Shown here piece after piece: positions 5,865-20,677 of a stretch of 30,367 bases of DNA. Within the stretch, counting starts at the first letter, position 1; every line of letters begins with the position of its first letter. The position numbers and the translations under genes are program-made. The stretch comes from a virus, in the IMG/VR virus record IMGVR_UViG_3300044991_000896, positions 1 through 30,367 of that record; one strand, given 5' to 3'. The notes beneath the pieces are model-generated. The model was given only the letters and a program-made list of their open reading frames with translations. It had not been told where the DNA came from and searched no databases.

Positions 5865-5916
5865 AGCTTATAGTAGTTCAAGAGGTGGTTTTTCCAGTTA
5901 AAGTGTAAAAAATAGT
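5865..5916. promoter_or_regulatory. divergent intergenic region between minus and plus gene blocks
   Basis: These 52 nt separate genes read in opposite directions, so promoters for both are expected here or nearby. On the plus side GTGTAAA (5903-5909) lies 7 nt before the ATG at 5917. On the minus side ACTATAAG lies very close to the ATG at 5864, too close for a conventional -10, so the minus promoter is not resolved. The AbrB-like product of the first minus gene could act here. Confidence 0.45.
5903..5909 (+). promoter_or_regulatory. GTGTAAA motif, copy 1
   Basis: GTGTAAA followed by an A-rich stretch, 7 nt upstream of the ATG at 5917. It is one of six copies in front of plus-strand genes. 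If it is a -10-like promoter element, the transcript would be nearly leaderless. Confidence 0.35.
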
Positions 5917-6282
5917 ATGGAAGATCAGATGAATTCTTTTATTTCTCAAAATTCGGTACTTTTAGTAGCGGGCGTTGCTTCGTTGCTGTTTAAAGAATTT
6001 ATTATCAACATTGTCAAGAGTATTATCTTTAAAATGACTTCTGGATTAAAAGAAGATGACGTTTTAATGTTTTGGGATGGCACAAAAAGCCCAGCAAGAA
6101 TCGTGAGAATCGGTTTAATGTCAACAACCTTATTTATCTACGATGTTAACGAAGAAGGAATCATCACTGGTGGCAGTCGTTTGGTTATGCAGAACGTAAA
6201 ACTAGAGAATGTCAAGTTCTTGAAACGACTCGCAATGATTGACGACGCTGATCTTAAACAGTTCAAAAAAAGTGTAAAATAA
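5917..6282 (+). CDS. membrane protein with MscS-like beta domain, 121 aa
   Basis: Residues about 12-40 form one or two hydrophobic helices (VLLVAGVASLLF, then FIINIVKSIIF). Residues about 45-100 are beta-rich: DDVLMFWDGTKSPARIVRIG, LMSTTLFIYD, then SRLVMQNVKLENV. This resembles the small beta domain that follows the pore helix in MscS-type channels (a G-x-V-xx-I-G-xx-ST pattern, then an N/P-x-L turn). It is much shorter than a full MscS subunit, so it may be a partial homologue rather than a channel. It is the first plus-strand gene, preceded by GTGTAAA and no clear ribosome site. Function in infection is unknown. Confidence 0.5.
   Translation: MEDQMNSFISQNSVLLVAGVASLLFKEFIINIVKSIIFKMTSGLKEDDVLMFWDGTKSPARIVRIGLMSTTLFIYDVNEEGIITGGSRLVMQNVKLENVKFLKRLAMIDDADLKQFKKSVK
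6272..6278 (+). promoter_or_regulatory. GTGTAAA motif, copy 2
   Basis: It lies in the last codons (Ser-Val-Lys) of the preceding gene, 8 nt before the ATG at 6287. Coding constraint could explain this copy, so it is weaker support than the intergenic ones. Confidence 0.25.
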
Positions 6283-6286
6283 TCAG

Positions 6287-7084
6287 ATGGCTTACGTTAC
6301 TTACGATAAAATCAGAGCGTATTTTACTAACGCTGATAGCGCCACTGACAACATCTTATACGCAACTAGTTTAAGCGCATCAAATACAACTAGTTTAAAA
6401 AGAGTTAGAAGAATTGGTCAGCAAATGGACTACTATATCCAGACTGGCCCAAAAAGCTCAAGCATTTCCGCGAATGTCCTTTTGGTTTCTGGAGAAATCA
6501 ACAAAATCATCAATTTAACTGGAGATTCGGTTACTGGTTCGCTGATTAAAGTTCCAGATTACCAATTTAACAAGTGTTATTTGAAAAGTTTCTCCGCATC
6601 ATTTGAGCCGTGGAAAGTTGCATCTGCGGCGCTGCAATTTGACTCTTACGGACTAGCAACTGGCTCTGGAATCTACGTTCATTCGGAGCAGCAAGCCACT
6701 ACTGGCAGCGGCATTACTTTATTATCGCCTTTAAGAGCAACAACAGTTCAATTCACTGCTCCAAATTTTTCCGCTACTCCAATTTCACAATATGAAAATA
6801 TTTCTTTCGATATTCAAGTCGATAGAGTTCCAAATTTTGTTATTGGCTCGGAATATCCTGAAAAAGTTAGCGTTTCTAAAATTACAAAGTCCTTGCAAGT
6901 AAACGGACTGAGTAATGCGGATTGGCTATCTGATTATCAACCAAATACGACAGTAACCTGCACCATCACGATGTCAGATGCTACTGTTTTTTCGGTAGCT
7001 GGCGTTTTATCTAATCAAACCCTCTCTGTTGATTCTAACGGAGTCGCTAAAGGAGGATTGCAGATTATTGAAGAGATGGTTTAA
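6287..7084 (+). CDS. probable virion structural protein, tail-tube-like, 265 aa
   Basis: The protein is rich in Ser, Thr, Asn and beta-strand patterns, with no cysteine pairs or enzyme motifs. Two halves resemble each other loosely: residues about 44-118 (QMDYYIQTGP...CYLKSFSASFEPWKVASAALQF) and about 155-200 (SQYENISFDIQVDRVPNFVIG). This organisation recalls tail-tube and related virion proteins built on one or two beta-sandwich/tube domains. The support is sequence style and location in the virion-gene strand only. It starts 4 nt after the preceding stop without a clear ribosome site. It is separated from the fibre genes by about 12 kb, and no tape-measure, sheath or baseplate gene is nearby, so the assignment is tentative. 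Confidence 0.45.
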   Translation: MAYVTYDKIRAYFTNADSATDNILYATSLSASNTTSLKRVRRIGQQMDYYIQTGPKSSSISANVLLVSGEINKIINLTGDSVTGSLIKVPDYQFNKCYLKSFSASFEPWKVASAALQFDSYGLATGSGIYVHSEQQATTGSGITLLSPLRATTVQFTAPNFSATPISQYENISFDIQVDRVPNFVIGSEYPEKVSVSKITKSLQVNGLSNADWLSDYQPNTTVTCTITMSDATVFSVAGVLSNQTLSVDSNGVAKGGLQIIEEMV

Positions 7085-7090
7085 CACTTT

Positions 7091-7870
7091 ATGGCAAAAA
7101 AAGCCCCTAAGAATAAGAAAACCAAACCTGCGGGAATCACAATTCCGCAACTAAAACAAGAAATCAAATTTAAAGAAAGAAAATTTAAGTTTTCAGATAA
7201 GCAACAAGACTTATTAAAAATACTTTTAAACGAGCAGACCAAAATCTCTTTCATCGCTGGACCAGCGGGAACATCAAAGACATTTATGGCTGTTTACGCA
7301 GCGTTAAACCTCATTAGTAACAATGACAAAGAAATTATTTACATTAGAACAATCGCAGAGAGTGGAGAAAAGTCTCTAGGCGCACTGCCCGGAACAGTTG
7401 GCGACAAATTCGCACCTTACCTGATTCCTCTTGAGGATAAAGTTCACGAAATTATCGAAGCTACTGATGCTCACCGTCTTAAAGACGACGGAAGACTTAC
7501 CGCAGTACCAGTAAACTTCTTAAGAGGCAGTACATTCACTGATAAAATCATCATTGCTGATGAAGTGCAAAACTTTACAGCTAAAGAGATTACAACTCTG
7601 ATTACTAGAATCGGAGAAGGCACAAAAATCTTTTTATGCGGAGATTTTATGCAATCGGATATTAAAGTTAAGAATGGATTCCTTGATTTTTTTGAGCTTT
7701 TCACTGGAGAAGACTGCGTTCAAAAAGGAATTTATACTTTTGAGTTCTCTGAAGAAGATATTAAAAGAAGCGAAATCTTAAAATTCGTTGTAAAGAAGAT
7801 TAACAACATTAATCTCCGTTATAGAATAAAAGATGAGCAGCGCAACGTCAAAAACGTCTCAGTTGAATAG
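7091..7870 (+). CDS. phoH: PhoH-like ATPase, 259 aa
   Basis: Walker A is GPAGTSKT (residues 57-64) and Walker B is IIIADE (153-158), with the PhoH signatures RTIAESGEKSLGALPG (86-101), FLRGSTF (143-149) and LCGDFMQSDI (172-181). PhoH-family P-loop NTPases are very common in phages of aquatic bacteria and are predicted to act on RNA or in phosphate-stress metabolism, though the phage role is unsettled. The N-terminal 15 residues are Lys-rich and probably flexible. The length is normal. The 3' end overlaps the next gene by 38 nt. Confidence 0.9.
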   Translation: MAKKAPKNKKTKPAGITIPQLKQEIKFKERKFKFSDKQQDLLKILLNEQTKISFIAGPAGTSKTFMAVYAALNLISNNDKEIIYIRTIAESGEKSLGALPGTVGDKFAPYLIPLEDKVHEIIEATDAHRLKDDGRLTAVPVNFLRGSTFTDKIIIADEVQNFTAKEITTLITRIGEGTKIFLCGDFMQSDIKVKNGFLDFFELFTGEDCVQKGIYTFEFSEEDIKRSEILKFVVKKINNINLRYRIKDEQRNVKNVSVE

Positions 7871-8174
7871 TTGGGCAAATATTATTAAGGTATTTGGCGG
7901 AATTTTGATCGCCTGTACATTGTATTACCTAAATACAACGTATGTAAAGAAGGATGATTTTAATCCTGTTGCTTTAGAGATGAAGGTTCAGGCAGAGCAA
8001 ATGTCTTACGTTAATACAGAAGTAAAAAATATTTCTCGACGCCTTTCAAAGATAGTAGATGATGAAGGAAAGCCAGTTAATACGGACAAAATGGTTGAAA
8101 TACAGAAAGATATAACTAAGATATTAGTAAAGCTGGAAAATCTTAACGATAAGGTTGACCGCATATCTAAATAA
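7833..8174 (+). CDS. single-pass membrane protein with coiled coil, 113 aa
   Basis: Residues about 16-34 are a hydrophobic helix (ANIIKVFGGILIACTLYYL). Residues about 48-113 are heptad-like (VNTEVKNISRRLSKIVDDE, then ITKILVKLENLNDKVDRI) and should form a coiled coil outside or inside the membrane. The topology (N-terminal anchor plus coiled coil) resembles inner-membrane spanin-like or tail-associated anchors, but there is no lysis cassette next to it. The start overlaps PhoH by 38 nt; no later Met would keep the membrane helix, so the overlap is probably real. Confidence 0.6.
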   Translation: MSSATSKTSQLNSWANIIKVFGGILIACTLYYLNTTYVKKDDFNPVALEMKVQAEQMSYVNTEVKNISRRLSKIVDDEGKPVNTDKMVEIQKDITKILVKLENLNDKVDRISK

Positions 8175-8179
8175 TAACT

Positions 8180-8557
8180 ATGGCTATCACTTTCTGTTCA
8201 TCGTGCGGTGCAAAACATGAGTATGTTGGATTTGCACCAAACTTTTGCTCAAAATGCGGCAACTCTTTTGGCTCGAAAGCTGTTCAACAGTCAACGGCAA
8301 AAGTCCAGCAGAAACCAACTGCTATTCGCAGTTCGCAAGTAGAAGACGATGACGAAGATTCTTCGGACATTGAGGAGCTTCCACACATAGAGTCGTTAGA
8401 CGTTGAAATCGAAATGGATGGAGGGTTTAAATCCTTCAACCTAGAAGATTTACAACGGAATCCCATGCAAGCGCAAGCTAAGAAATTCAAAGCAAAGCGC
8501 TCTGATGGTATTGATGGCCTATCTCCTGAAAAATATGGAAGCTCAAAATCTGGGTAA
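8180..8557 (+). CDS. zinc-ribbon protein with acidic linker, 125 aa
   Basis: The N-terminus carries a zinc ribbon: C6-x2-C9 and C23-x2-C26, in the zinc-ribbon-like context FCSSCGAKHEY...NFCSKCGNSFG. A Gln/Ser-rich linker follows, then a very acidic stretch (EDDDEDSSDIEELPHIESLD, about 56-75), and a basic C-terminus. Such proteins usually bind a nucleic acid or another protein. Its position directly before the sigma-like gene, which it overlaps, raises the possibility that it works with transcription, but that is inference. Confidence 0.65.
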   Translation: MAITFCSSCGAKHEYVGFAPNFCSKCGNSFGSKAVQQSTAKVQQKPTAIRSSQVEDDDEDSSDIEELPHIESLDVEIEMDGGFKSFNLEDLQRNPMQAQAKKFKAKRSDGIDGLSPEKYGSSKSG

Positions 8558-9242
8558 AATAACTTACGACGATAAGAAAGATGTAATAGACAAAATCATT
8601 GAGAAGCACAGATATATCTGGCAGCTCAAAGCTATTTGTTGGATGGATTACGAAGATGTCGCGCAGATTGTGAGATTTCACATCTCAAAGAAGTGGCATA
8701 TGTGGAAACAAGATCGCCCACTTGAACCTTGGATAGCTAGAATCACTTCTAATCAGATTAAGAACTTACTTCGTAACAACTATTCTAATTATACTCGCCC
8801 ATGTTTAGGTTGCAAGTTTAATCAAGGTAACGAACCACCAGCTTGCTCGATCACACCAAGCGGAAGACAATGCTCTGAATGTCCGCTATACAGGAAATGG
8901 GAAAAAACAAAGAAGAGTGCATATGATGTTAAGCTATGTGTATCTATCGAAGGTCATATAGATGCTGTTCATTCGATGCGCGATCAGAATTTCGACATTT
9001 TATCTAGTGCCGCTCGCCTTCACGAAGAAATGCGCTTATACTTAGCTCCTAAGCAGTATAGAGTTTATACAAGACTCTTTGTTGATGGAGTAGATGAAGA
9101 AAAAGTAGCTGCCGAAATGGGTTACAAGACAAATGAAAAAGGTAAAAAGGCTGGATACAAACAAATCAAAAATCTTAAGAAGCTATTTAGGCAAGTAGCT
9201 CTAAAAATTTTACAATCGGAGGATATTTTAAGTGGAAGCTAA
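8535..9242 (+). CDS. phage RNA polymerase sigma-like factor with Cys-rich insertion, 235 aa
   Basis: Numbered from the ATG at 8535, residues about 25-82 resemble sigma-70 region 2 (MDYEDVAQIVRFHISKKW, then PWIARITSNQIKNLLRNN). Residues about 170-225 resemble region 4, with a helix-turn-helix (EEKVAAEMGYKTN, then GYKQIKNLKKLFRQVALKIL). Between them lies C90-x2-C93, C104 and C113-x2-C116, probably a zinc-binding insertion. The likely role is to redirect host RNA polymerase to phage promoters, as other phage sigma factors do; the recurring GTGTAAA motif is a candidate target. An alternative in-frame ATG at 8505 would add 10 residues and lengthen the overlap with the zinc-ribbon gene; neither start has a good ribosome site. 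Confidence 0.7.
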   Translation: MEAQNLGKITYDDKKDVIDKIIEKHRYIWQLKAICWMDYEDVAQIVRFHISKKWHMWKQDRPLEPWIARITSNQIKNLLRNNYSNYTRPCLGCKFNQGNEPPACSITPSGRQCSECPLYRKWEKTKKSAYDVKLCVSIEGHIDAVHSMRDQNFDILSSAARLHEEMRLYLAPKQYRVYTRLFVDGVDEEKVAAEMGYKTNEKGKKAGYKQIKNLKKLFRQVALKILQSEDILSGS

Positions 9243-10308: not shown

Positions 10309-11269
10309 GTGCAAAGAATGTAATCAAGATTTTCCAAGCGAAAGAAGTCTTCATACTCATTTGAAGAAGCATAAGATGTCGCTTGGAGACTACTACTGTG
10401 CCCATTACCCGAAGAAAAACCTCTTAACTGGTACAAAGTTAAGCTTCAAGGATAAAGAGTCTTATTTTGAAAAGGATTTCGAGAACAGAGAGCAGTTATT
10501 AAAGTGGTGCAACTTTGAAAAAGCAGAAGTTGTTAAACCGTACATAAAACAACTGCTTGAAAGACGAGTAACTAATAAAGAATTAGTTGTTGCGCCTAGT
10601 CATATCGAAATTGAAACAAGCGAACTGCCAAGTATCAACTGTTTCAAGAAGCATTACGGTTCTTACTCGGCGGTTTGTTCTGAGATTGGCATAAAGCCAA
10701 TGTTCACAAAGAATATCCACAAAGATTTTCACTCTGACTACTCTAACGTTAATATTTTCATTGATACAAGAGAACAGCAACCATTGGAGTTTAAGAATCA
10801 AAGAGAAGTTAAGCTAGATTTTGGAGACTATACTGCTGGTGGTCAAAATTACTCTAAAACATTCGTTGATAGAAAATCAGAAAGCGATTTTAAGAGCACT
10901 TTAGTTGGAGAGAACTTCGACAGATTTAAAAGAGAGATCGAAAGATGCAAATCTATGGATTGTTTCTTGTTTGTTGTCGTGGAATCTAGTTTTGATCAGA
11001 TCAAAAACAATAATGACTTCACCTCACATAAATCTAATTTAAAATTCGTATATCACAATATGCGTTTGCTGCAACAAGAGTTCCACAAGAACTGTCAATT
11101 CGTTTTTTCTGGTAGCAGAAAAAATAGCGTAGTTTTAATACCTAAACTTCTTGTTTGTGGCCCAAAACTTTGGGAAACAGACATTCAATACTTCATAGAA
11201 AAGGATCAATCATGGCTTGGATCGTTGGCGACCAAAAAAGAAAAAGCGTTTACAACAGTAACAAAGTAA
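10295..11269 (+). CDS. C2H2 zinc finger-ERCC4-type nuclease fusion, 324 aa
   Basis: Residues 6-26 form a canonical C2H2 finger (C6-x2-C9-x12-H22-x3-H26). Residues about 153-235 match the ERCC4/XPF-Mus81 nuclease domain: IDTRE (156-160), DFGDYT (175-180), a VDRK variant of the ERK motif (191-194) and Asp198, then FDRFKREIERC and VVVESS. These nucleases cut branched or flap DNA, often next to a junction. It sits between the HTH-like protein and TerL, overlapping both (14 nt and 58 nt), so a role in resolving branched replicating DNA before packaging is attractive, though inferred. The middle region (about 50-150) resembles no family I recognise. Confidence 0.75.
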   Translation: MMPFKCKECNQDFPSERSLHTHLKKHKMSLGDYYCAHYPKKNLLTGTKLSFKDKESYFEKDFENREQLLKWCNFEKAEVVKPYIKQLLERRVTNKELVVAPSHIEIETSELPSINCFKKHYGSYSAVCSEIGIKPMFTKNIHKDFHSDYSNVNIFIDTREQQPLEFKNQREVKLDFGDYTAGGQNYSKTFVDRKSESDFKSTLVGENFDRFKREIERCKSMDCFLFVVVESSFDQIKNNNDFTSHKSNLKFVYHNMRLLQQEFHKNCQFVFSGSRKNSVVLIPKLLVCGPKLWETDIQYFIEKDQSWLGSLATKKEKAFTTVTK

Positions 11270-13083
11270 ACGAAGAGATTTTAAAGAAAGAAGGCTATCT
11301 AGAAGAGCGCGAAGCTAAGATTCTTCTATATAAATTTCTACGCAGCAACATTTCATTCTCTTCTGAGATTATTTGCGGCGTAAAACCGTTTCCATTTCAG
11401 CATCTCGCAATTAAAACGATGTTTGAAACAGACTATTCCATGATGGTGTGGAGTCGTGGTCTTTCTAAGAGCTTTACTTGCGCTGTATTCGCAGCGTTGG
11501 ACGCTATTTTGAATCAAGGTGTTCACATTGGTATCGTAAGTAAAACATTTCGTCAAGCAAAGATGATTTTCCGCAAAATTGAAGAAATCGCGGACAAGCC
11601 AAATGCTATTTTCTTAAAGCAAGCTATCACAAAAGTATCTAAGAGTTCTGATGAATGGACAATGGAGTTTGGTCGCAGTAAAATTACCTGCTTACCACTT
11701 GGTGACGGTGAAAAGCTTCGTGGTTTTCGCTTTCACCGTATGATGATCGACGAATTCTTGTTGATGCCAGAAAGAATCTTCAACGAAGTTATTATTCCGT
11801 TCCTTTCTGTAGTGCAGAACCCAACAGAGAGAAAAGAAGTATATGACTTAGAGACTCAGTTGATCGCTAGAGGAGATATGATTGAAGAAGAGCGTTTTAG
11901 ATGGCCGAATAATAAAATTATCGTGCTATCATCTGCTTCTTATCAGTTTGAATATATGTACAGGCTTTATAAGCAGTACGAATCACTCATTAAGTTCCCA
12001 GAAAAAGATGGAAAAGGTAATTCAACTAGAGCTATCCTGCATTTTTCTTATGATGTAGCTCCTCATGGTCTTTACGACGAGAGTTTGCTGACACAAGCTA
12101 AGTCAACTATGTCTGAGTCGCAGTTCCAAAGAGAATTCGGCTCTAGATTCATGGACGATTCTTCTGGTTACTTTAAATTGAGCAAGATGCACGAATGTAC
12201 AATCAAGCCGCTTGAAGGACAAGCGATTGAAGTGGCTGGACAGAAAGGTTCTGATTATATTTTAAGCTTCGATCCTTCGTGGGCCGAAAATGAATCGTCT
12301 GACGACTTTGCGATGAACCTTATTAAGCTTGATGTGGCTAACCGTAAAGGAATCATCGTTCATAATTACGCCGTATCAGGAACTAATCTTAAAAAGCATA
12401 TCGACTACTTAGCTTACTTGATGAATAATTTTAATATCGTTGGAATGTGCGGCGATTATAACGGTGGTGTGCAGTTTATTAATGCCGCAAACGAAAGCGA
12501 AGTATTTAAAAACGCTAAAATCGAAATTAAAATGTTTGAAGCTGATTTTGATTCGCCTGAAAAGTATCAAGATGAAATTCGTAGAGCAAGAAGAGCGTAT
12601 AATTTAAAAGATACTCGCATCTGTTACCTTAGAGTGCCAACAAGCTCTTGGATTCGCTACGCCAACGAGTTATTGCAATCTAACTTCGATCATAGAAAGA
12701 TGCTGTTCGCTGCCGAAGCTGTTGATAACGATTTCACAGCTCAAAAGAACAAAACTATTCCAATTAAAACGATTAAATTCTTCCGAGATCAAGAAGATAA
12801 TCAAACGAACGACGCAAAGATGGTCGATTTCGTTGACCATCAATCTGATTTGATTGAATTGGTTAAAGCGCAATGTTCTCTAATCATTCCAACAACAACA
12901 GCTAATGGACATCAGAGTTTCGACTTGCCACCAGAACTTAAAAGACAAAGTGGAGCAGAAAAAACCCGCAAAGACTCGTACTCTTGCTTAGTATTAGGCA
13001 ACTGGATGATGAAAATCTATTTTGATATGATGGATTGTCCAGAACAACAGGCGCAAACTTTTACTCCGTTCTTCGTGAGGTAA
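11212..13083 (+). CDS. terL: terminase large subunit, 623 aa
   Basis: The ATPase domain has a deviant Walker A (SRGLSKSF, residues 81-88, after MMVW), Walker B RMMIDE (176-181) and a coupling motif LSSAS (239-243). The nuclease domain has SFDPSW with Asp354, CGDYNG with Asp415 and VDFVDHQSD (538-546) for the third acidic residue, the pattern of RNase H-like terminase nucleases. It is the motor that pumps DNA into proheads through the portal, encoded next. The start at 11212 is chosen because AAGGAT (11201-11206) precedes it; a longer frame to 11155 has no such support. It overlaps the nuclease gene by 58 nt. Confidence 0.93.
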   Translation: MAWIVGDQKRKSVYNSNKVNEEILKKEGYLEEREAKILLYKFLRSNISFSSEIICGVKPFPFQHLAIKTMFETDYSMMVWSRGLSKSFTCAVFAALDAILNQGVHIGIVSKTFRQAKMIFRKIEEIADKPNAIFLKQAITKVSKSSDEWTMEFGRSKITCLPLGDGEKLRGFRFHRMMIDEFLLMPERIFNEVIIPFLSVVQNPTERKEVYDLETQLIARGDMIEEERFRWPNNKIIVLSSASYQFEYMYRLYKQYESLIKFPEKDGKGNSTRAILHFSYDVAPHGLYDESLLTQAKSTMSESQFQREFGSRFMDDSSGYFKLSKMHECTIKPLEGQAIEVAGQKGSDYILSFDPSWAENESSDDFAMNLIKLDVANRKGIIVHNYAVSGTNLKKHIDYLAYLMNNFNIVGMCGDYNGGVQFINAANESEVFKNAKIEIKMFEADFDSPEKYQDEIRRARRAYNLKDTRICYLRVPTSSWIRYANELLQSNFDHRKMLFAAEAVDNDFTAQKNKTIPIKTIKFFRDQEDNQTNDAKMVDFVDHQSDLIELVKAQCSLIIPTTTANGHQSFDLPPELKRQSGAEKTRKDSYSCLVLGNWMMKIYFDMMDCPEQQAQTFTPFFVR

Positions 13084-13084
13084 A

Positions 13085-13123
13085 ATGAAAGTCATAAAAG
13101 TACTTTTGATACTTTTAGTGTAA
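13085..13123 (+). other. 12-codon hydrophobic mini-frame in the terL-portal gap
   Basis: ATG at 13085 begins one base after the TerL stop and encodes MKVIKVLLILLV before TAA at 13121. It overlaps the repeat and promoter-like sequences in this gap. It could be a leader peptide, a remnant of a lost gene or chance; there is no independent evidence of translation. Confidence 0.15.
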
Positions 13124-13138
13124 CTTTTACTATATAAT
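13096..13138 (+). promoter_or_regulatory. putative promoter/operator for the portal and capsid genes
   Basis: The terL-portal gap contains a perfect 12-bp palindrome AAAAGTACTTTT (13096-13107), three ACTTTT copies (13102, 13111, 13124), a GTGTAAC variant of the recurring motif (13118-13124) and TATAAT (13133-13138). TATAAT ends only 3 nt before the ATG at 13142, so if it is a -10 box the portal would be leaderless or nearly so. GTGTAA lies 17 nt before the ATG. The density of elements suggests regulation here. Confidence 0.4.
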
Positions 13139-13141
13139 CAT

Positions 13142-15133
13142 ATGTCGCGTTCATATAACAAGAAGTCGGACTATTGGAGCAAGTTTAACAAGCCAGAAAG
13201 CAGCTCGCTTACTGTTCATAACAACTACGAACCAAAGCTTTTAGGTGAATCTTACTTCACAGAAGTTGCCAAAGCTTCTTATAGTCGCCCAGTTCAAGGA
13301 GCTACAGACACAGCGCAGAGCACAAAGATTCCAAGAAACGGAACTGACCACAACATTCGCCGCTATGCTCTTTTGAGTCAAGGAATGCTTCCTTATCAGT
13401 TCTCTAAAGACGGTGTTGATATTCGTGATGCTATCTTGCTTTGCCAAAAGGCTTACGCAAACGTCGCTTTAGTTAGAAACACAATCGACATTGCCACAGA
13501 GTTCGCTAATACAGAGATTTATCTTGAAGGTGGTACTGCACGTAGCAGAGAATTCTTTACTAAGTGGTTTGAGAAGATCAAACTGTGGAAATTAAAAGAC
13601 CAATACTTCCGCGAATACTATCGCAGTGGAAACATCTTCTATTATCGTATCGACGGTAAATTCAAAGCAGAAGATTTTAAACTTTTGTCTGGTTTGAGCG
13701 AAAACGGAGTTGTTAATAACAAAATTCCTCTTCGCTACATCTTAATTAATCCTTACGAAATCGTTGCCAAGGTTTCTGCTTCGTTTTCAGAAGCGATTTA
13801 CGAAAAACTTCTTTCTGAATACGAGTTAGAAAGACTCAGAAATCCAAAAGATGACGCTGATAGAGAATTGTTTAAAGCTCTTCCTGCTGATATGCAGAAG
13901 AAGGTTAAAGATAAGGCTTATTTCAGAGATGGATTAAAGATGAAACTCGATCCATCATTCTTACTATACTCTTTCTATAAGAAACAAGACTATGAACCGT
14001 TTGCAATTCCATTTACCTTTCCAATCATGGAAGATGTTAATGCAAAACTGGAATTAAAGCATATTGATCAAGCTATTTCTCGCACAGTAGAGAATGTATT
14101 GCTGCTTATCACTATGGGCGCGCCTCCAGATCAAGGCGGCATCAATCCAGCGAACATGGCGGCAATGCAATCGCTGTTTATGAATGAAAGTGTTGGTAGA
14201 GTTCTCGTTTCTGACCATACGACAAAAGCTGAATTCATTATTCCTGATTTAAAGAAGGTCGTTGGTGAAGAGAAATACAAAATTCTTAATCAAGACATTA
14301 AAGAAGGCTTGATGAACGTTCTTGTTGGCGACGACAAGTATAACGGACAGACCGCGAAGATTGGTTTCTTCATGGAACGCCTTAAAGAATCGCGCAACTG
14401 TTTCTTGAACGATATTCTCCAACCAGAAATCATTCGCATTTCAAAAGATTTAGGTTTCAAAGCTTATCCTACTGCTAAATTTAAACAAATTGATCTTAAA
14501 GATGAGATTCAATATATGCGTACAGTTAGCCGCTTGATGGAACTGTCGATTATCACTCCAGAACAAGGTATTGAAGCTATGGCTAACGGCAAATTGCCTT
14601 CTCCAGAAGAGTTAAGCCCAGCTCAAGACAAGCTTGTAGAAGAAAGAAAGAAAGGACACTACAATCCTCTTGTTGGCGGCGTTCCAATGACTGAAGATCT
14701 AAATGCACCAGAGCCAGCTGCTCCTGTTGCCGCTGGAAAACCAGTTAATAAAATCTCTAGAACACCAACGGCTAAACCAAAGAACTCTACCTCTGGCAGA
14801 CCGTTAGGAGCAAAGTCAAAAGCCTCTACTTCTGATATTCAATCTACTGTTTATGCAGTTGATGCTTTCATGAAGGCTTCCGAAACATTCACTGCCGAAA
14901 AGTTCGGCGTAAATCAACTTAACGATCAACAAAAATCGAGCATAATCGAGCTATGTAAGAAAGTTGTTGCCGCTTCTAACAAAGAAGAATGGACAACTAG
15001 ACTACAAGCTTGCGTGCAAGATTTAGGTAACATCGAGAAGCTTCAACCAATGAAAGAAATCTCTGATACTGCTGATGAATTTCTATTGGACGAATATTCT
15101 GCGGCCATTTTGTATCATTCTGCTGTAAAGTAA
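13142..15133 (+). CDS. portal protein, 663 aa
   Basis: Position (directly after TerL, before protease/scaffold), size and sequence all fit a phage portal. Recognisable features are an N-terminal region with DIRDAILLCQKAYANVALVR and NTIDIATEFAN (residues about 99-129), an FREYYRSGNIFYYR strand-helix segment (about 158-171), and a helical domain ending near PEIIRISKDLG. The C-terminal ~150 residues include a low-complexity linker (PEPAAPVAAGKPVNK, then RTPTAKPKNSTSGRP) and a helical tail, probably flexible and not in the ring core. Portals form the dodecameric channel at one head vertex for DNA entry and exit. No ribosome site is obvious at its start. Confidence 0.85.
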   Translation: MSRSYNKKSDYWSKFNKPESSSLTVHNNYEPKLLGESYFTEVAKASYSRPVQGATDTAQSTKIPRNGTDHNIRRYALLSQGMLPYQFSKDGVDIRDAILLCQKAYANVALVRNTIDIATEFANTEIYLEGGTARSREFFTKWFEKIKLWKLKDQYFREYYRSGNIFYYRIDGKFKAEDFKLLSGLSENGVVNNKIPLRYILINPYEIVAKVSASFSEAIYEKLLSEYELERLRNPKDDADRELFKALPADMQKKVKDKAYFRDGLKMKLDPSFLLYSFYKKQDYEPFAIPFTFPIMEDVNAKLELKHIDQAISRTVENVLLLITMGAPPDQGGINPANMAAMQSLFMNESVGRVLVSDHTTKAEFIIPDLKKVVGEEKYKILNQDIKEGLMNVLVGDDKYNGQTAKIGFFMERLKESRNCFLNDILQPEIIRISKDLGFKAYPTAKFKQIDLKDEIQYMRTVSRLMELSIITPEQGIEAMANGKLPSPEELSPAQDKLVEERKKGHYNPLVGGVPMTEDLNAPEPAAPVAAGKPVNKISRTPTAKPKNSTSGRPLGAKSKASTSDIQSTVYAVDAFMKASETFTAEKFGVNQLNDQQKSSIIELCKKVVAASNKEEWTTRLQACVQDLGNIEKLQPMKEISDTADEFLLDEYSAAILYHSAVK

Positions 15134-15136
15134 TTC

Positions 15137-16750
15137 ATGGCGTTTAAGTATAAGACGAAATTAGATAACATTTCTGTCGCTTGTCACAAAGTCGGCAGCA
15201 AAGATTTTCAAATTTCAAAAGCCTCTCTTGACGAGCTAAAAAAGCTCTCTCCAAATATTAACTTTGAAGATAATCCTGATTTATTAGGAGTGTCTTTTAA
15301 CTTAGCTGTGCCAAATATGGTAAATCATAACGGCGACAGTATTTCAGGAGCTACTGCTGCTAAAATCGCCAAAAGATTTCTTAATAAATACTTAAACATC
15401 GAACATAATAAGAAACGCGTTATTGGTCATATCACTAACTACGGATTTAATAGACTAAGTGATAATGTTCAAATGACAGAAGAAGAAGCGGGCAAAACAT
15501 TAGAACCATTTTACTTATCAGTTGCAGGAGTCATTTATAAAACAGTAGATTCATCTTTTACTTCGTTGATGATTCGCAATTCTGATCCTGCTGATTCGTT
15601 CAGAAACTCAATTTCGGCAAGTTGGGAGATTGGTTTTAGTAATTATTATTTGGCTGTTGGAAGTGAGAATTTAAAAGAAGCCGACATCATTACTGATCCA
15701 GAAACCGTTGCAGAATACTCAAAATATTTAAAAAGCAAAGGCGGAAAAGGAAAACTCCAAGATGGAACAATGATTAACAGAGTTATTGTTGGAGAAATCT
15801 ATCCGCTAGGAGGAGGGTTCACCACAAATCCAGCTGCACAAGTTAATGGTGTAGTAGCATTTGATTCTAAAGTTTCAGTTTCCTTGCAGGACTCGGAAAA
15901 CGAAATTTCAGAAGAAGAACCACAAGATTTAGAGATGCAAGATTCATCAAAAGACTACCGTCATGAAGTGATGGCATTCTTGATGAATAAAAAATCAAAT
16001 TCCATTTTAGAGATAAAAAATGTAAAAAATATAAACCATATGGACTTAGAAAAACTTATCACAGAACTCAAGAGCGCTCTTCTTGAGAAAAAATTCGGTG
16101 AAGAAGCTGTCGCTTCAATGACTAGCCAATTCACAGAAGCTATCAAACAAAAAGACACAGAATATCGCGATTCAATCGCTGCTGAAAAAAACGCTAAAGA
16201 ACAAGCTCAGAAGCTTTACGAACAAACCGTCGCTTCTGTTGAAGAAATCAAAGCTTCTTTGGCCGCAGCTCAAGATGAGCTGAATAAAATTAAAGAACAA
16301 AAAACTCAAGAAGAAGCTTTTGCTCGCCTGAATAACCGCATGGCTGAACTTGACGCCTCTTACGAACTCTCCGACGAAGACCGCAAGGTTATCATGGGTG
16401 AAATTCAAAATGTTGACTCCACAGAAGAAGCTTTCGCTTCTTACAAAGATAAATTTAGTGTTATGATGAAGCATAAGAACAAAGAAACAATCAAGGCTCA
16501 AGCCGCCGAAATGGAAAAGAAGATTTCGGAAATGGTTGAATCTCGTCTTAAAGAAGTCAGCAAAGCTTCTGTCACTGCCGTTGTTGAAACAAAGGTAGAA
16601 GACAAGAAACCTGACATTACAGCCGCTCTCGAAAGCGCTGTTGCCACAAACACCGCGCCAGATAGTCAAACATCTGTCGAAATCAACTTCCGCGATAAGT
16701 TTGCACAAGCTTTTTCGCGTGAAAACATTAGCGTAAGCTATTCTAAATAA
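15137..16750 (+). CDS. prohead protease-scaffold fusion, 537 aa
   Basis: Residues about 1-245 look like a phage prohead protease: LGVSFNLAVPNMVNHNGDSI, then LNKYLNIEHNKKRVIGHI with a conserved His (about residue 94), and ISASWEIGFSNYYL (about 157-170) with a Ser that may be catalytic. Residues about 250-290 are an acidic linker. Residues about 302-500 are Lys/Glu/Gln/Ala-rich coiled coil (ALLEKKFGEEAV..., EEIKASLAAAQDELNKIKEQ) typical of scaffold. The C-terminal 40 residues are unstructured with a basic end. The likely role is to assemble the procapsid around the scaffold, then cleave scaffold and capsid proteins. An in-frame ATG at 16040 could produce the scaffold alone. It starts 3 nt after the portal stop. 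Confidence 0.7.
   Translation: MAFKYKTKLDNISVACHKVGSKDFQISKASLDELKKLSPNINFEDNPDLLGVSFNLAVPNMVNHNGDSISGATAAKIAKRFLNKYLNIEHNKKRVIGHITNYGFNRLSDNVQMTEEEAGKTLEPFYLSVAGVIYKTVDSSFTSLMIRNSDPADSFRNSISASWEIGFSNYYLAVGSENLKEADIITDPETVAEYSKYLKSKGGKGKLQDGTMINRVIVGEIYPLGGGFTTNPAAQVNGVVAFDSKVSVSLQDSENEISEEEPQDLEMQDSSKDYRHEVMAFLMNKKSNSILEIKNVKNINHMDLEKLITELKSALLEKKFGEEAVASMTSQFTEAIKQKDTEYRDSIAAEKNAKEQAQKLYEQTVASVEEIKASLAAAQDELNKIKEQKTQEEAFARLNNRMAELDASYELSDEDRKVIMGEIQNVDSTEEAFASYKDKFSVMMKHKNKETIKAQAAEMEKKISEMVESRLKEVSKASVTAVVETKVEDKKPDITAALESAVATNTAPDSQTSVEINFRDKFAQAFSRENISVSYSK
16040..16750 (+). CDS. possible nested scaffold protein, 236 aa
   Basis: An in-frame ATG at 16040 (MDLEKLITELKSALLEKK) sits exactly at the junction between the protease-like part and the coiled-coil part. 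Upstream is an AT-rich stretch with ATGTAAAAAATATAAAC, close to the GTGTAAAAAATAGT before the gene at 5917. Codon choice becomes richer in C-ending codons from about here, like the capsid genes downstream. Nested protease/scaffold genes are known in other phages (lambda C/Nu3). No Shine-Dalgarno sequence is visible, so independent expression is a hypothesis. Confidence 0.35.
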   Translation: MDLEKLITELKSALLEKKFGEEAVASMTSQFTEAIKQKDTEYRDSIAAEKNAKEQAQKLYEQTVASVEEIKASLAAAQDELNKIKEQKTQEEAFARLNNRMAELDASYELSDEDRKVIMGEIQNVDSTEEAFASYKDKFSVMMKHKNKETIKAQAAEMEKKISEMVESRLKEVSKASVTAVVETKVEDKKPDITAALESAVATNTAPDSQTSVEINFRDKFAQAFSRENISVSYSK

Positions 16751-16785
16751 TAACAATCAAGTAAATATATAATAAGGAAAACAAT

Positions 16786-17406
16786 ATGGCTATTCGTCTC
16801 TTACCATTCCGTCAACTCAACGAGTTTGACGTGGTCAATATGTACGCCCTTGTTGACGCTGCCGTTAACGAGAGCACAACAGGCGTTGGCAGCGGTGACG
16901 CAGGTGTTTTCGTTAAAGTTTCCGCAGGTAACTTTGACTTAGACCCAGTTTCATACGCTTCTGACTCATACCTCGGCAAAACCGATTATCCGCATATCGG
17001 TGCTGCCCAATACCCAAAGGTTAACCTCAAGGTTACCCCCGCCGCCTCTGGCGATCTCACAAACTGCCTCGGACTCACCCTCCGTCAGACTGCTAAAACA
17101 GATGAAAACGGCGAAAAGCTTCTCTACTACCGCCAAAAAGCGGAAGAGCTGATGGCTGTTCTCCCTGGTCAAGCTGTTCCAGTCGCTACTCGCGGTATCT
17201 TCTCGCTTGGCGCTAACGCCGTCGATGGTACTCTCACAGTTGGCTCTGGCTTCAAGCTTTCCGCCAATGGTGGTAAAGTTACAGGCTGCGCTCACAGTGA
17301 CGCTGGCAAACTCGGCCTTGTTCTCGGAACAGGCTCACGCACAACTCTTAACGGTGTTGCTGATCAATTCAACGGCAATTTCGCCGTCGTCGGTCTGCGT
17401 ATGTAA
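16786..17406 (+). CDS. probable capsid decoration/stabilisation protein, 206 aa
   Basis: Position between scaffold and major capsid protein is where decoration proteins such as lambda gpD are encoded. The sequence is Gly/Ala/Val-rich and beta-like, with few charged patches (GSGDAGVFVKVSAGNFDLD, then DGTLTVGSGFKLSANGGKV), as expected for a virion surface protein. A strong ribosome site AAGGA (16774-16778) precedes the ATG, and codon choice is biased toward C-ending codons, both signs of high expression. It might instead be a head-fibre base or a minor capsid protein. No enzyme motif is present. Confidence 0.6.
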   Translation: MAIRLLPFRQLNEFDVVNMYALVDAAVNESTTGVGSGDAGVFVKVSAGNFDLDPVSYASDSYLGKTDYPHIGAAQYPKVNLKVTPAASGDLTNCLGLTLRQTAKTDENGEKLLYYRQKAEELMAVLPGQAVPVATRGIFSLGANAVDGTLTVGSGFKLSANGGKVTGCAHSDAGKLGLVLGTGSRTTLNGVADQFNGNFAVVGLRM

Positions 17407-17440
17407 TTGAACAATAAAATATAAAAGGAAAAAATTTATA

Positions 17441-18580
17441 ATGAAAATCACATTAAAGCGCACACCAGAACAGATTGAGCTTATCAAAGCTATGGCCAGC
17501 CGCAACCGCACCGTCGCTTATGACGCGCAAGTTGCTCTCGCCTCCTTCATCGGACCTGTACTTGCAGAAGTTATCAACAACGCTCCTACACTGAGCAACT
17601 TGTTCACAACTCTGCCATTCAACGCCGATGACAATCCCAGCATCCCGCTCGACCTCTACTTCGACATCAATGACGAAGATTATATCACAGTATATTCTCA
17701 GTCCGTCGCTGGTGGTCTTCCAACCAATCAAGTTCTCCCAACCACATCCGAATTGAAAGTTGCTACTTACAGCCTCGACAGCGCTCTGTCGTTTGATCGT
17801 AAGTACGCCGCCAAACATCGTATGGACGTTGTAGCGAAAACCTTCACCCGCATGGCCCAAGAAGTTCTCTTAAAACAAGAACGCACTTCCGCCTCGCTGG
17901 TAATGGCCGCTCTCGCCGCCGCCACCACAAATAGCAAGCAACACGTTCAAAAAGCTAACCAAGCTGGTCGTTTCCTCTTGGCTGACTTGAACGAACTGCT
18001 CACCCTCGCAAAGCGTATCTCCACATCGTGGGCTAACGGTACTCCTGCTGGTGGCGCTCGCGCTGGTTTGACCGACATTCTGGTTTCCCCAGAAATCGTT
18101 GAGCAAATTCGTGCAATGGCTTATAACCCAATCAACACCGTTTCTGGTATCACCGCTTCTGGCGGCACAGCTTCTTCGGTCGGCATCGCTGCCACCGACG
18201 AAATGCGCTCCGCTATCTACGGCGCAAGTGGTATCCCAAGCTTCTACGGTGTTTCGATCTTGGAATTCGTTGAAATGGGCAAAGGCCAAAAGTTCAACAC
18301 CATTTTCGACACCGCTGCTGACGCCACAACCTTCACAAAGGCTGATGGTACAAGCTCTGGTGACTTCACTGGTTCCACACAAGAAATCATCGTTGGTATT
18401 GACCGCAGCCGCGAGTCTCTCCTTCGTGTTGTCGCTACCGATCCAGATTCCAACTCGGAATTCACGCTCGTTGCCGACGACCAATTCAGCATCCGCCAAA
18501 ATAAGATCGGTTATTTCGGCTCGATGGAAGAAGGCCGCATGATTCTCGACAATCGCGCCCTCGTTGGCAAGATCGTCTAA
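17441..18580 (+). CDS. major capsid protein, 379 aa
   Basis: It follows the protease/scaffold and decoration genes, has the usual length (about 350-400 aa) and strong expression signals: ribosome site AAGGAA (17425-17430), C-ending codon bias and a perfect terminator right after. The N-terminal region is helical (TPEQIELIKAMASRNRTVAY), followed by NNAPTLSNLFTTLPF and a conserved-style beta segment, while the middle has a Gly/Ser/Thr-rich loop (NTVSGITASGGTASSVGIAA). The C-terminal segment (STQEIIVGIDRSRESLLRVV, then DDQFSIRQNKIGYFGSMEEG) is typical of HK97-fold capsid proteins. The HK97 fold is inferred from context and pattern. Cleavage by the protease is possible; no clear site is seen. Confidence 0.85.
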   Translation: MKITLKRTPEQIELIKAMASRNRTVAYDAQVALASFIGPVLAEVINNAPTLSNLFTTLPFNADDNPSIPLDLYFDINDEDYITVYSQSVAGGLPTNQVLPTTSELKVATYSLDSALSFDRKYAAKHRMDVVAKTFTRMAQEVLLKQERTSASLVMAALAAATTNSKQHVQKANQAGRFLLADLNELLTLAKRISTSWANGTPAGGARAGLTDILVSPEIVEQIRAMAYNPINTVSGITASGGTASSVGIAATDEMRSAIYGASGIPSFYGVSILEFVEMGKGQKFNTIFDTAADATTFTKADGTSSGDFTGSTQEIIVGIDRSRESLLRVVATDPDSNSEFTLVADDQFSIRQNKIGYFGSMEEGRMILDNRALVGKIV

Positions 18581-18599
18581 TAGAATAGTTCTTACGAAG

Positions 18600-18630
18600 C
18601 CCGCCTCGAAAGAGGCGGGTTTTTTATTCT
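18600..18630 (+). terminator. intrinsic terminator after the major capsid gene
   Basis: CCCGCCTC (18600-18607), a GAAA tetraloop (18608-18611) and GAGGCGGG (18612-18619) form a perfect 8-bp GC-rich stem, followed by T6 (18620-18625). It lies 19 nt after the capsid stop and should end the packaging/head transcript. Confidence 0.93.
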
Positions 18631-18645
18631 CTATATTCTAGAAAA

Positions 18646-18652
18646 GTGTAAA
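18646..18652 (+). promoter_or_regulatory. GTGTAAA motif, copy 4 (after the terminator)
   Basis: It lies between the capsid terminator and the next ATG (18672), 19 nt upstream of it. A new promoter is needed here because the terminator ends the previous transcript, so this copy is among the best evidence that the motif is promoter-related. Confidence 0.4.
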
Positions 18653-18671
18653 CTGTAAGGTATCATCTAGT

Positions 18672-19067
18672 ATGGAAACATCAACTGGACAGTCTAAAGT
18701 TAAAGAAAATCCGAGTCTTATGAGTGCTTTAAACAACATTCAAGATAAGAACTCTAAGGAGTATCGTGATAAAGTTCGTGAATTAGAAACTGCTTTAGGC
18801 GTTAAAGAAGTAAATATTTTTGGTACAGCAAATCGCTCTATCTTTGAAGAAAATTTAAATGAGATGAATGAGATGCAAATGCAAGCGTTGGCGCGTCGTC
18901 TTTATATTGATCAGTCTGGTAGCAAGCCTATGTTAAAGAAGCGTCTAATGAAGCAGTTTGACACACAAAACGTTCAGAGTCGCGGTTATTTTTCTCCACA
19001 ACCTAAACAAAAAGAGCTATTTTCTGAAAAACAGAAGATCGCTATGAATAAAATCTTAAATGGCTAA
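18672..19067 (+). CDS. hypothetical protein with SAP-like helix pair, 131 aa
   Basis: The protein is charged and helical. Residues about 63-97 (MNEMQMQALARRLYIDQSGS, then KPMLKKRLMKQF) resemble a SAP-type DNA-binding helix-extended-helix (L-x2-L-A-x-R-L...G-x-K-x2-L-x-x-R-L), suggesting DNA binding. The remainder is not recognised. It is the first gene after the capsid terminator and overlaps the next gene by 8 nt, so the two are probably expressed together. Head-completion proteins often sit here, but a SAP domain would be unusual for one, so I do not assign a virion role. No ribosome site is clear. Confidence 0.55.
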   Translation: METSTGQSKVKENPSLMSALNNIQDKNSKEYRDKVRELETALGVKEVNIFGTANRSIFEENLNEMNEMQMQALARRLYIDQSGSKPMLKKRLMKQFDTQNVQSRGYFSPQPKQKELFSEKQKIAMNKILNG

Positions 19068-19548
19068 TATCGAACAAGTAGCAAGCGGTATATTCTTCTA
19101 CGAATTTGATGCGGATACAGCGGAAGCTAATATCAGTATCATTTCTGGTTGGATTACCGCAAACTTAGGTGAAATCAACAACTTGATTTTTACTAATTTC
19201 ACAGGTGAAGACGCTAGTCTTGGAAAAGAAGAACAAGATATTCTCAAGCATCTTTATATGGCGAGCTACTACAAAAAGAAGTCGAGAAACGTTATTAAAT
19301 CTATTGGTTCTTCCTCTGGAAACGGAATCTTGTCTTTGAAAGACGAAGACAATACAATTGTATTTGTTAATACAAACGAAGTGAGCAAACAGTTCCATTC
19401 TTTATCAAAAAGTCATATGGAAGAAGTTAATAAACTTGTTTACGCTTATAACTCTTATCAAGCAAGACCAACTCAAGTTGTGAATAAGAGTATGTTTAAT
19501 GATGTTATGGGTTTGGTTGCTACTGGTACAGGTTTCATCATCTACTAA
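19060..19548 (+). CDS. hypothetical protein, possibly head-tail or neck related, 162 aa
   Basis: I do not recognise a family. Residues about 1-55 resemble a mixed alpha/beta start (VASGIFFYEFDADTAEANIS, IISGWITANLGEINNLIF), with a helix-rich middle (EEQDILKHLYMASYYKKKSR) and a hydrophobic C-terminus (MGLVATGTGFIIY). The segment with several aromatic residues followed by basic helices is similar in style to small head-tail connector proteins, which often have a length near 160 aa and lie downstream of the capsid gene. That is positional inference. It is followed by an intrinsic terminator. Confidence 0.5.
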   Translation: MANIEQVASGIFFYEFDADTAEANISIISGWITANLGEINNLIFTNFTGEDASLGKEEQDILKHLYMASYYKKKSRNVIKSIGSSSGNGILSLKDEDNTIVFVNTNEVSKQFHSLSKSHMEEVNKLVYAYNSYQARPTQVVNKSMFNDVMGLVATGTGFIIY

Positions 19549-19570
19549 AGTCTAGTTTTAATTAAAATTC

Positions 19571-19603
19571 AAAAGCGCACCCTTAAAAGTGCGCTTTTTG
19601 TGT
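19571..19603 (+). terminator. intrinsic terminator after the post-capsid gene pair
   Basis: AAAAGCGCAC (19571-19580) pairs with GTGCGCTTTT (19589-19598) around an 8-nt loop, and T-rich sequence follows. The A/T ends of the stem make it potentially active in both directions. It separates the small head-gene pair from the fibre region. Confidence 0.88.
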
Positions 19604-19606
19604 AAA
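19600..19606 (+). promoter_or_regulatory. GTGTAAA motif, copy 5 (after the second terminator)
   Basis: It begins 2 nt after the terminator stem and ends 21 nt before the ATG at 19628. As at 18646, a fresh promoter is expected immediately after a terminator. Confidence 0.4.
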
Positions 19607-19627
19607 TTTAAATGAAAGCTTCTAACA

Positions 19628-19969
19628 ATGTCTGCTTCTACTTATAACATTTCCATAGAAACAAATACAGATTATTCTGTTAGTCTTATACTTAAAGATG
19701 CTGGAGGCGTAGCAATCAATCTTACTTCTGCAACAATTGATGCAGAAATAAAACAGAATTATTATTCGCCAACACTTGTTGCTTTTACAGTAACGAAAAC
19801 AAATCCTAGTATTGGATCAATCAAACTCGCTTTAACTGCTGCGCAAACTGCGGCATTACATCCGGGCGATTTGCAGTATGATGTTTTAGTAAAATTTGAT
19901 AATGGTACATTTCAAAAAATATTAAAAGGAGTTATTTCGGTAACATCAGGCATAACATCACTATCATAA
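19628..19969 (+). CDS. beta-sandwich virion protein, fibre/baseplate-associated, 113 aa
   Basis: The sequence reads as a single immunoglobulin-like beta-sandwich: TNTDYSVSLILKDAGGVAIN, LTSATIDAEIKQNYYSP, IGSIKLALTAAQTAALHPGD and QYDVLVKFDNGTFQKILKGV. This organisation (a short strand, LTSAT-like, then a GDLxYDVxV strand) is common in small structural proteins next to phage tail fibres and in the N-terminal domain of upper baseplate proteins. It could be a connector or a fibre-base accessory. It opens the fibre operon and ends 1 nt before the next ATG. Confidence 0.6.
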   Translation: MSASTYNISIETNTDYSVSLILKDAGGVAINLTSATIDAEIKQNYYSPTLVAFTVTKTNPSIGSIKLALTAAQTAALHPGDLQYDVLVKFDNGTFQKILKGVISVTSGITSLS

Positions 19970-19970
19970 A

Positions 19971-20660
19971 ATGTCCGAAGTAGTTGAAATTATTATATCT
20001 GGTAATGATGATGGGCCGATTCAAATTATTGAAGCGGATCAGTTCAACCATAACTCGCTTCCTGACTTACAAGGAGGAACTGGTGGTCAATATTATCACT
20101 TAACAAGTGGTCAATACAATTTCGTTACTGGAATTTTCGCAGATCAGATTGATCCTACTCATGACGTATTCTTTGAAAAGAATGTCTCTGTCTCAGGCAC
20201 ACTTCTTCTTGGCAGTGGGACAGACAATTCATTAAGCGGAATTCGTACAGCTGCTGACGGTAGCTTTTCTCAAGCTGGTGACGCTCAATATTCGGAGTTT
20301 ATTTTAAAAAGAGAAACAACAACAACTGGAACTTATGAGTTGTCGTTTCCAAATCAAATCAAGAAGTTAACTTTACCTAATAACACTTCATGGTTCTTTA
20401 AAGTGAGAGTTATCGGAAGATCAACTGCTGGTTTAACATCAACGTTTAATGCAGAAGGTACAATTAAAAAAGGTATAAGCGCAGGATTCACAGAAATTGT
20501 TGGAGGAACAATTGTGAACGGGGTAACTGATGAGTTGGCAGTTGGCGGAATCTTAATCGACGCTGATACAACTTACGGATACCTCAAAATCAGCGTTTTG
20601 GGGTTAACAGCAACTACAATTCACTGGGTCGCATTTCTAGATTTAATACAAGTAAAATAA
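19971..20660 (+). CDS. tail fibre-like protein, 229 aa
   Basis: Residues about 26-54 (NHNSLPDLQGGTGGQYYHLT then SGQYNFV) match a motif found repeatedly in phage tail fibre proteins. Residues about 101-229 (GDAQYSEFILKRETTTTGTY, then NTSWFFKVRVIGRS, DADTTYGYLKISVLG, TTIHWVAFLDLIQV) are a C-terminal domain common at the ends of fibre proteins, probably a trimeric tip or knob. The same domain ends the next fibre gene. The short middle suggests a compact fibre or a component that binds a longer one. The start is 1 nt after the previous stop. Confidence 0.7.
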   Translation: MSEVVEIIISGNDDGPIQIIEADQFNHNSLPDLQGGTGGQYYHLTSGQYNFVTGIFADQIDPTHDVFFEKNVSVSGTLLLGSGTDNSLSGIRTAADGSFSQAGDAQYSEFILKRETTTTGTYELSFPNQIKKLTLPNNTSWFFKVRVIGRSTAGLTSTFNAEGTIKKGISAGFTEIVGGTIVNGVTDELAVGGILIDADTTYGYLKISVLGLTATTIHWVAFLDLIQVK

Positions 20661-20670
20661 CAACAAAATC

Positions 20671-20677
20671 GTGTAAA
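20671..20677 (+). promoter_or_regulatory. GTGTAAA motif, copy 6
   Basis: It lies in the 43-nt gap before the fibre gene at 20704, 26 nt upstream of the ATG. A CGGAG ribosome-like site follows. There is no terminator in this gap, so the copy would be an internal promoter. Confidence 0.35.

Follow-up and report, generated by a model that had tools for sequence, protein, structure and literature searches.

The DNA analyzed here, a 30,367-nucleotide stretch of viral origin (positions 1 to 30,367 of the IMG/VR record IMGVR_UViG_3300044991_000896, hereafter the window), carries the heptamer GTGTAAA or, in one place, GTGTAAC a short distance before six of its genes. An earlier note on this sequence had pointed to the six copies, and all of them were found at the positions it gave, on the plus strand, with no further GTGTAAA or GTGTAAC on either strand of the window. 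The gap between the end of the heptamer and the ATG amounted to 7, 8, 17, 19, 21, and 26 nucleotides (nt), in agreement with the 7 to 26 nt reported there, or to 14, 15, 24, 26, 28, and 33 nt if counted from the first G, which is the distance used below. The elements and the features closest to them are as follows, together with the rank of each element in a matrix scan (see below).

5903 to 5909, plus strand: GTGTAAA before gA (ATG at 5917, distance 14 nt; matrix rank 5)
6272 to 6278, plus strand: GTGTAAA before gB (ATG at 6287, distance 15 nt; matrix rank 4)
13118 to 13124, plus strand: GTGTAAC before the portal gene (ATG at 13142, distance 24 nt; matrix rank 3)
15123 to 15132, plus strand: possible variant element CTGTAAAGTA before the open reading frame (ORF) 15137-16750 (distance 14 nt; matrix rank 8)
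18596 to 18623, plus strand: intrinsic terminator-like hairpin, 12 pairs plus a T-run (terminator scan), preceding the 18646 element
18646 to 18652, plus strand: GTGTAAA before gG (ATG at 18672, distance 26 nt; matrix rank 9)
19571 to 19598, unstranded: hairpin abutting the 19600 element (terminator scan, scored as a minus-strand terminator)
19600 to 19606, plus strand: GTGTAAA before gI (ATG at 19628, distance 28 nt; matrix rank 2)
20671 to 20677, plus strand: GTGTAAA before gK (ATG at 20704, distance 33 nt; matrix rank 1)
8535 to 9242 (ORF open from 8505), plus strand: sigma-like protein, sigma 1 (PF04542, 25.3 bits, cut-off 24)
11212 to 13083, plus strand: terminase large subunit, terL (PF03237, 32.6 bits, cut-off 22; PHROG 2)
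13142 to 15133, plus strand: portal gene, remotely matching annotated portals of Bacillus phages
Genes labeled by their start: gA 5917, gB 6287, gD 8180, gF 16786, MCP 17441, gG 18672, gH 19060, gI 19628, gJ 19971, gK 20704

The label MCP was given by gene order to the ORF that follows the portal and protease-like ORFs, and no search names it. The portal match, obtained with tblastn over 9% of the query, had an E-value of 6e-3 to phages Stills, Stahl, and Staley and of 3e-4 to phage MaeS.

The count of the heptamer against shuffled controls, a check proposed in the earlier note, gave five GTGTAAA copies versus 5.17 +/- 2.26, so the number of copies is what chance would produce and only their placement is unusual. 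Strand-positions lying 7 to 45 nt upstream of starts make up 2.2% of the window, and the probability that six of six copies fall there is about 1e-10 (a post hoc figure). Since the copy number equaled the shuffled expectation, the window alone could not decide the matter, and independent evidence had to be drawn from relatives. The 6272 copy overlaps the final codons of the ORF before gB. The claim that two copies follow intrinsic terminators is clearly right for the 18646 copy and plausible for the 19600 copy, whose hairpin was scored on the minus strand; viewed on the plus strand, the 3' arm of this hairpin ends in five T directly before the motif.

Close relatives were retrieved with a terminase query against IMG/VR (best 80 of 118 loci, 82-100% identity). 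In the sequences upstream of orthologous genes, GTGTAA was constant, while the neighboring bases and the spacing to the ATG varied. Among distinct 50-nt upstream sequences, GTGTAA was present in 10/10 for gA, 12/18 for gB, 23/23 for the portal gene, 15/15 for gG (always at 26 nt), 18/18 for gI, and 7/7 for gK. Genes that have no copy of their own in the window gave 0/34 (terL), 0/20 (gD), 0/20 (protease-like ORF), 0/17 (MCP), 0/17 (gH), 0/15 (gF), 0/10 (sigma), 1/10 (gJ), and 3/14 (PhoH), and the copies upstream of PhoH are the Val-stop codons (GTG TAA) that end the preceding gene. Three of the seven whole records had no element before gB, and all three carry one before gA, so the gene run retains a putative promoter. 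Furthermore, a tail-region gene encoding 149-151 amino acids has the element in 4/4 records, at 14 nt in each. At the variant site 15123-15132, TGTAAA was found in 20/20 distinct upstream sequences; because this site shares bases with the 3' end of the portal ORF, its conservation may be due to coding. All these counts are less independent than they appear, as the sites are orthologous.

A search that made no use of the motif led to the same sequence. In eight phage records, the comparison covered every k-mer up to 45 nt from a called start, with ORFs taken from a simple script that set some starts wrongly. As the upstream motif search suggested in the earlier note, it returned GTGTAA as the top 6-mer (68 of 170 copies upstream, background 0.0254, log10 p -61) and GTGTAAA as the top 7-mer (51 of 95). 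That note had named a motif as common inside genes as before them as the outcome that would speak against its proposal; per base, GTGTAA proved far commoner upstream (68 copies in 27,090 strand-positions) than inside genes (95 in 870,659). The remaining copies were distributed as 36 in genes in sense orientation, 59 antisense, and 7 elsewhere in intergenic DNA. Among the 64 words of the form NNNTAA, GTGTAA had an upstream fraction of 0.40, the runner-up reaching 0.109, and in-frame stops accounted for only 5 of its 68 upstream copies. A matrix derived from 57 sites in the seven other records, a training set that includes orthologues of the window sites, placed five of the six window sites in its top five ranks. 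The variant ATGTAAAGTA or CTGTAAAGTA was likewise enriched upstream in the eight records and was met again in front of a gene encoding 373-388 amino acids in four records (L082:15106-16233, minus strand, and its orthologues in G002, G006, and G007, with ATGTAAAGTATTT as the variant element).

The motif was also followed into distant phages. A portal query from locus L032 matched at least 599 relatives; the best 80 loci were taken and 77 of them examined. Their portals were 49-55% identical to the query, and the motif persists there as GTGTA: the 75 nt before the portal match contained GTGTAA in 62 of the 77 loci, GTGTATAAT in 11, and GTGTAC at the same spot in 1, with 3 having none. When near and distant phages were pooled, the 82 distinct portal upstream sequences comprised 65 with GTGTAA, 11 with GTGTAT, 1 with GTGTAC, and 5 scored as lacking the motif. 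Three of these five had been cut by an extrapolated start and do contain GTGTAA, which brings the sequences with GTGTA to 80 of 82, and the remaining two (L257/L283 and L282) have GTGTAA before a 51-amino-acid ORF abutting the portal start. In 50 dereplicated loci out of 63 distant ones, the most enriched upstream words were GTGTA among 5-mers (85 of 417, background 0.0187) and GTGTAA among 6-mers (59 of 195). Of the 82 distinct portal starts, 78 were preceded within 70 nt by a repeat of the form AAGT-(0-2)-ACTT, whose density in the loci would predict 0.0115 copies in a stretch of that length; this repeat is a possible operator. In the window, a palindrome, AAAAGTACTTTT, is located at 13096-13107, 10 nt before the portal element.

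Sixty upstream sites defined the form of the element: A/T-rich bases on the 5' side, GTGTAA (fixed by the search), A in 77%, T in 58%, and then T or A in 95%. No enrichment of a -35 element was detected, a TTGACA-like word at 16-18 nt being present at 9 of 51 near sites (5-10 in shifted controls) and 14 of 59 distant sites (3-21 in shifted controls). The distance to the ATG had a sharp lower limit. For genes encoding at least 60 amino acids, 11 sites were at 14 nt, 7 at 15, and 5 at 16, with none at 9 or 11-13, and the three near sites under this floor (8, 10, and 10 nt) coincide with Val-stop codons; in the distant group, 29 sites were at 14 nt, 8 at 15, one at 7, and none at 8-13. Conservation, placement, strand, the missing -35 element, and the 14-nt floor can thus all be read from the sequences. 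The floor fits a -10-type element and would be explained if the shortest transcripts started at the AUG. In phage phiEco32, the RNA starts 6-8 bp past the promoter element (PMC8948821), and a start at that distance, combined with a spacing of 14 nt, would place the first nucleotide at about the A of the AUG. The earlier note had remarked that two copies leave almost no leader, which needed explaining; leaderless transcripts would account for this best. Such transcripts are frequent in phages (PMC5312081). A Shine-Dalgarno-like sequence was present in 1 of 28 genes with the element at 14-18 nt versus 12 of 37 with the element at 19-40 nt (Fisher p 0.004).

The earlier note had suggested the sigma-like factor at 8535-9242 as a possible reader of the motif. 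The protein itself was borne out, though its ORF spans 8505-9242, and 8535 corresponds to Met-11, which is the start in 6 of 14 aligned sigma 1 rows. Its region 2 (PF04542) scored over the cut-off in five of five records, and 16 of 18 aligned members matched at an E-value of 0.01, whereas region 4 (PF08281) was found in none of the five records, with a positive control. The C-terminal part is helical and region-4-like in a poor structural model (pLDDT 57.8), and Foldseek matched the model mainly with sigma factors, the best matches being ECF factors (E 0.02 or worse). A sequence comparison of sigma 1 with the PDB gave no trustworthy match. Four cysteines (C100, C103, C114, and C126) are invariant in 18 aligned relatives, and the stretch they mark, between the two putative sigma domains, resembles a zinc ribbon. 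Sigma 1 was present in 22 of 63 distant loci at 35-60% identity, in the same place as in the window; among the 24 distant loci with a listed upstream flank, it was missing only from L223 and L225 (flanks of about 4.0 and 3.5 kb). It was also found in six of seven long distant records, the seventh (L242) ending 3.9 kb before the portal gene.

A second sigma-like protein of 193-195 amino acids, sigma 2, is encoded in the relatives G009 and G006, in 28 contigs, and in four of seven distant records. Its gene (L083:15791-16372, minus strand; L093:606-1193, plus strand; and L178-L205) adjoins, as judged by eye, dUTPase- and SSB-like ORFs. Its PF04542 matches (E 0.0014 and 0.0048) were below the cut-off, another test giving 0.074 or no match, and Foldseek returned mainly sigma factors (best E 0.03) for a model with a pLDDT of 57.9. 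Homology between sigma 2 and sigma 1 was not detected, and the incomplete records closest to the window yielded no sigma 2. In 12 of the 28 sigma 2 loci (L181-L183, L186, L188-L190, and L200-L204), only 570-620 nt of contig precede the gene, and the 127-kb relative G009 has a G-rich low-complexity stretch near sigma 2 (L083 16901-17140); this would point to a genome end or an assembly break. A phage-encoded RNA polymerase is an unlikely reader of the motif, since the multisubunit enzyme (PF00562) was absent from five records in which the control was positive; PF00940 was also found in none of the five, but its control was blank as well, making that result uninformative.

Taken together, the comparative data strongly support a promoter element common to virion genes, as the earlier note had supposed. 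We infer from the above features promoter function, a start site, a sigma factor, and a timing, and propose, with a probability of roughly 60%, that the virion-gene transcription units of this phage group are driven by a -10-like promoter made up of one element, with GTGTAAA(T/A) as its core, and that a sigma factor encoded by the phage probably serves to read it. The GTGTAA promoter would switch on virion genes through the phage sigma factor and RNA polymerase; an ATG 14-16 nt from the first G would yield a leaderless or nearly leaderless mRNA, and one further away a brief leader that in some cases includes a Shine-Dalgarno sequence. The late timing supposed in the earlier note is tentative: the elements of gA and gB stand at the front of the gene run in which terL and the sigma 1 gene lie as well. 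The position of the sigma 1 gene behind these elements suggests self-reinforcement. The choice of sigma 1 in the earlier note is plausible, though rivaled by sigma 2: the comparative data leave the two unseparated as readers, and sigma 1 is favored, a weak reason, because it is encoded in the virion-gene block beside the elements.

Several observations weigh against this proposal: (i) many of the tests share orthologous sites; (ii) the 18646 copy ranked only ninth in the matrix scan, behind three intragenic sites; (iii) the Shine-Dalgarno frequency at 14-18 nt, compared with 85 of 514 motif-less genes, does not differ significantly (p 0.10); (iv) the sigma 1 model is poor and its fold matches are weak (E 0.02 or worse); (v) a second sigma-like protein exists in G009 and G006; (vi) by the reasoning of PMC8948821, the apparent region 4 of sigma 1 would lead one to expect a second promoter element, and none was seen; and (vii) homology of sigma 1 to phiEco32 gp36, T4 gp55, or phage 7-11 gp47 was not detected (hhalign probability 0.1, 0.1, and 0.3, respectively), in weak tests with a single sequence each.

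If the same promoter were read by sigma 2, this protein would be made early and would turn on the GTGTAA genes, including that of sigma 1, in a two-step cascade. The wide occurrence of sigma 2 agrees with this, as do the TTGACA word before its gene run in G009 and the lack of GTGTAA within 260 nt before its ORF in nine of ten printed loci, the tenth having one far upstream; moreover, the sigma 1 gene is itself placed downstream of GTGTAA promoters, and some other factor therefore has to act first. However, the region-2 match of sigma 2 is under the Pfam cut-off, the protein was not found in the incomplete records nearest the window, and nothing ties it to the motif, and we consider this route unlikely, though worth keeping in mind. 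T4 middle transcription relies on the host main sigma factor aided by a phage activator, and by analogy the element might serve this host factor as a promoter of the extended -10 type that lacks a -35. The distant-group element often reads GTG+TATAAT or GTG+TAATAT, and the AAGT-(0-2)-ACTT repeats near the portal element could be an activator site. Yet these repeats were noted at the portal gene only, and T occupies the sixth position of TANNNN in no more than 26 of 51 near sites (37 of 59 distant ones), whereas GTG is kept. This GTG is also nearer by one base than the TGn usual in extended -10 promoters, and the group has ordinary TTGACA-type promoters for other genes; this mode of reading appears improbable.

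That the motif consistently lies a short way before start codons would also suit a signal acting in translation or on the RNA. The distance, however, varies between 14 and 39 nt and exceeds that of a ribosome site, the motif is missing before most genes in each unit, and it follows a terminator-like hairpin, which makes such a role very improbable. Chance, or a by-product of Val-stop gene ends, would account for the window count, for the PhoH copies, and for the three sites at 8-10 nt, but the rarity of in-frame stops among upstream copies, the k-mer enrichment, and the conservation in near and distant relatives contradict it, and we give it practically no weight.

Besides the proposed virion-gene promoter, some relatives carry a promoter of the host type. 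Opposite gA, the sequence TTGACA-16 nt-TANNNT points toward a minus-strand gene, 6-7 nt before its ATG, in 8 of 12 printed sequences (L038, L042, L047, L052, L054, L059, L071, and L077), and is absent from the four window-type sequences. In some relatives, early-type and virion-type promoters would thus adjoin each other, facing in opposite directions, and the early transcripts, given the 6-7 nt to the ATG, may be leaderless too. A host-type promoter directly before sigma 1 was sought and rejected, as the candidates, with matches at 10 of 12 positions and located some 400 nt upstream of the gene in several relatives, lie in coding sequence. A broader and more tentative picture, to which we give somewhat less than even odds, is that these phages, a large group of uncultured and siphovirus-like viruses, run a two-sigma program of their own, in which TTGACA early promoters would be followed by a -35-less GTGTAWW class read by a new sigma family with a four-cysteine linker, with the shortest transcripts starting at the AUG and virion genes partly leaderless.

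SPO1-type cascades employ several phage sigma factors, which is alike in that more than one is encoded per genome, and their promoters are two-part, which is unlike the element described here. The closest likeness in working principle would be to the promoters of phiEco32 gp36 and the T4 late promoters. Those of gp36, a protein reportedly without region 4, are likewise single elements without a -35, placed before middle and late genes and used with the host RNA polymerase core (PMC8948821). Their consensus, tAATGTAtA, has TGTATA in common with the distant-group GTGTATAAT (PMC8948821); the window-group motif GTGTAAA(T/A) and its near-leaderless layout are different. T4 late promoters, TATAAATA, read by gp55 (PMC5587285, PMC5780444), are also single -10-type elements before virion genes, and TGTAAATA (20672) agrees with TATAAATA in 7 of 8 positions, but GTG is kept here in place of TA; PMC5587285 also shows an ordinary -35/-10 promoter. 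In the window, TATAAATA itself occurs only at 1494 (plus strand) and at 1101 and 5097 (minus strand), never before virion genes. Phage 7-11 gp47 similarly brings the host RNA polymerase to virion genes, although its late promoters are bipartite, GTAAtg-(16)-aCTA (PMC8948821). The earlier note had thought the system possibly undescribed; limited literature text searches found nothing on this motif family among the matches listed, which is not proof of its absence from print.

The genomes compared are metagenomic contigs, several of them incomplete. G009 encodes tape-measure (PF10145) and tail (PF05100 and PF13550) proteins of siphovirus type, and the group looks siphovirus-like, a morphology predicted from these genes. 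They also make a T4-like virion unlikely, although the terminase is T4-type. Microcystis phage MaeS had the top terL score among the 20 of 67 records listed, and GTGTAA was upstream in 1 of its 12 copies (40,810 of 79,995 bases examined). Seven tRNA genes in 16 stretches offered no host clue, and a pattern-seeded scan of genome contigs contained no terminase relative. Elsewhere in the window, long collagen-like GVQGTQG repeats were seen by eye in tail-fiber-like ORFs at 22770-24674 and 25168-30366, and several HNH endonuclease-like ORFs, also by eye, at 235-2944 on the minus strand.

These phages had no close relative in the isolate collection that was searched, and the results provide a testable transcription map for them, together with a short signature marking the starts of virion genes. 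From the 14-nt floor, the 5' ends of transcripts can be predicted precisely. Should sigma 1 read the motif, it would represent a further sigma family working without a -35 element despite an apparent region-4-like domain in its model.

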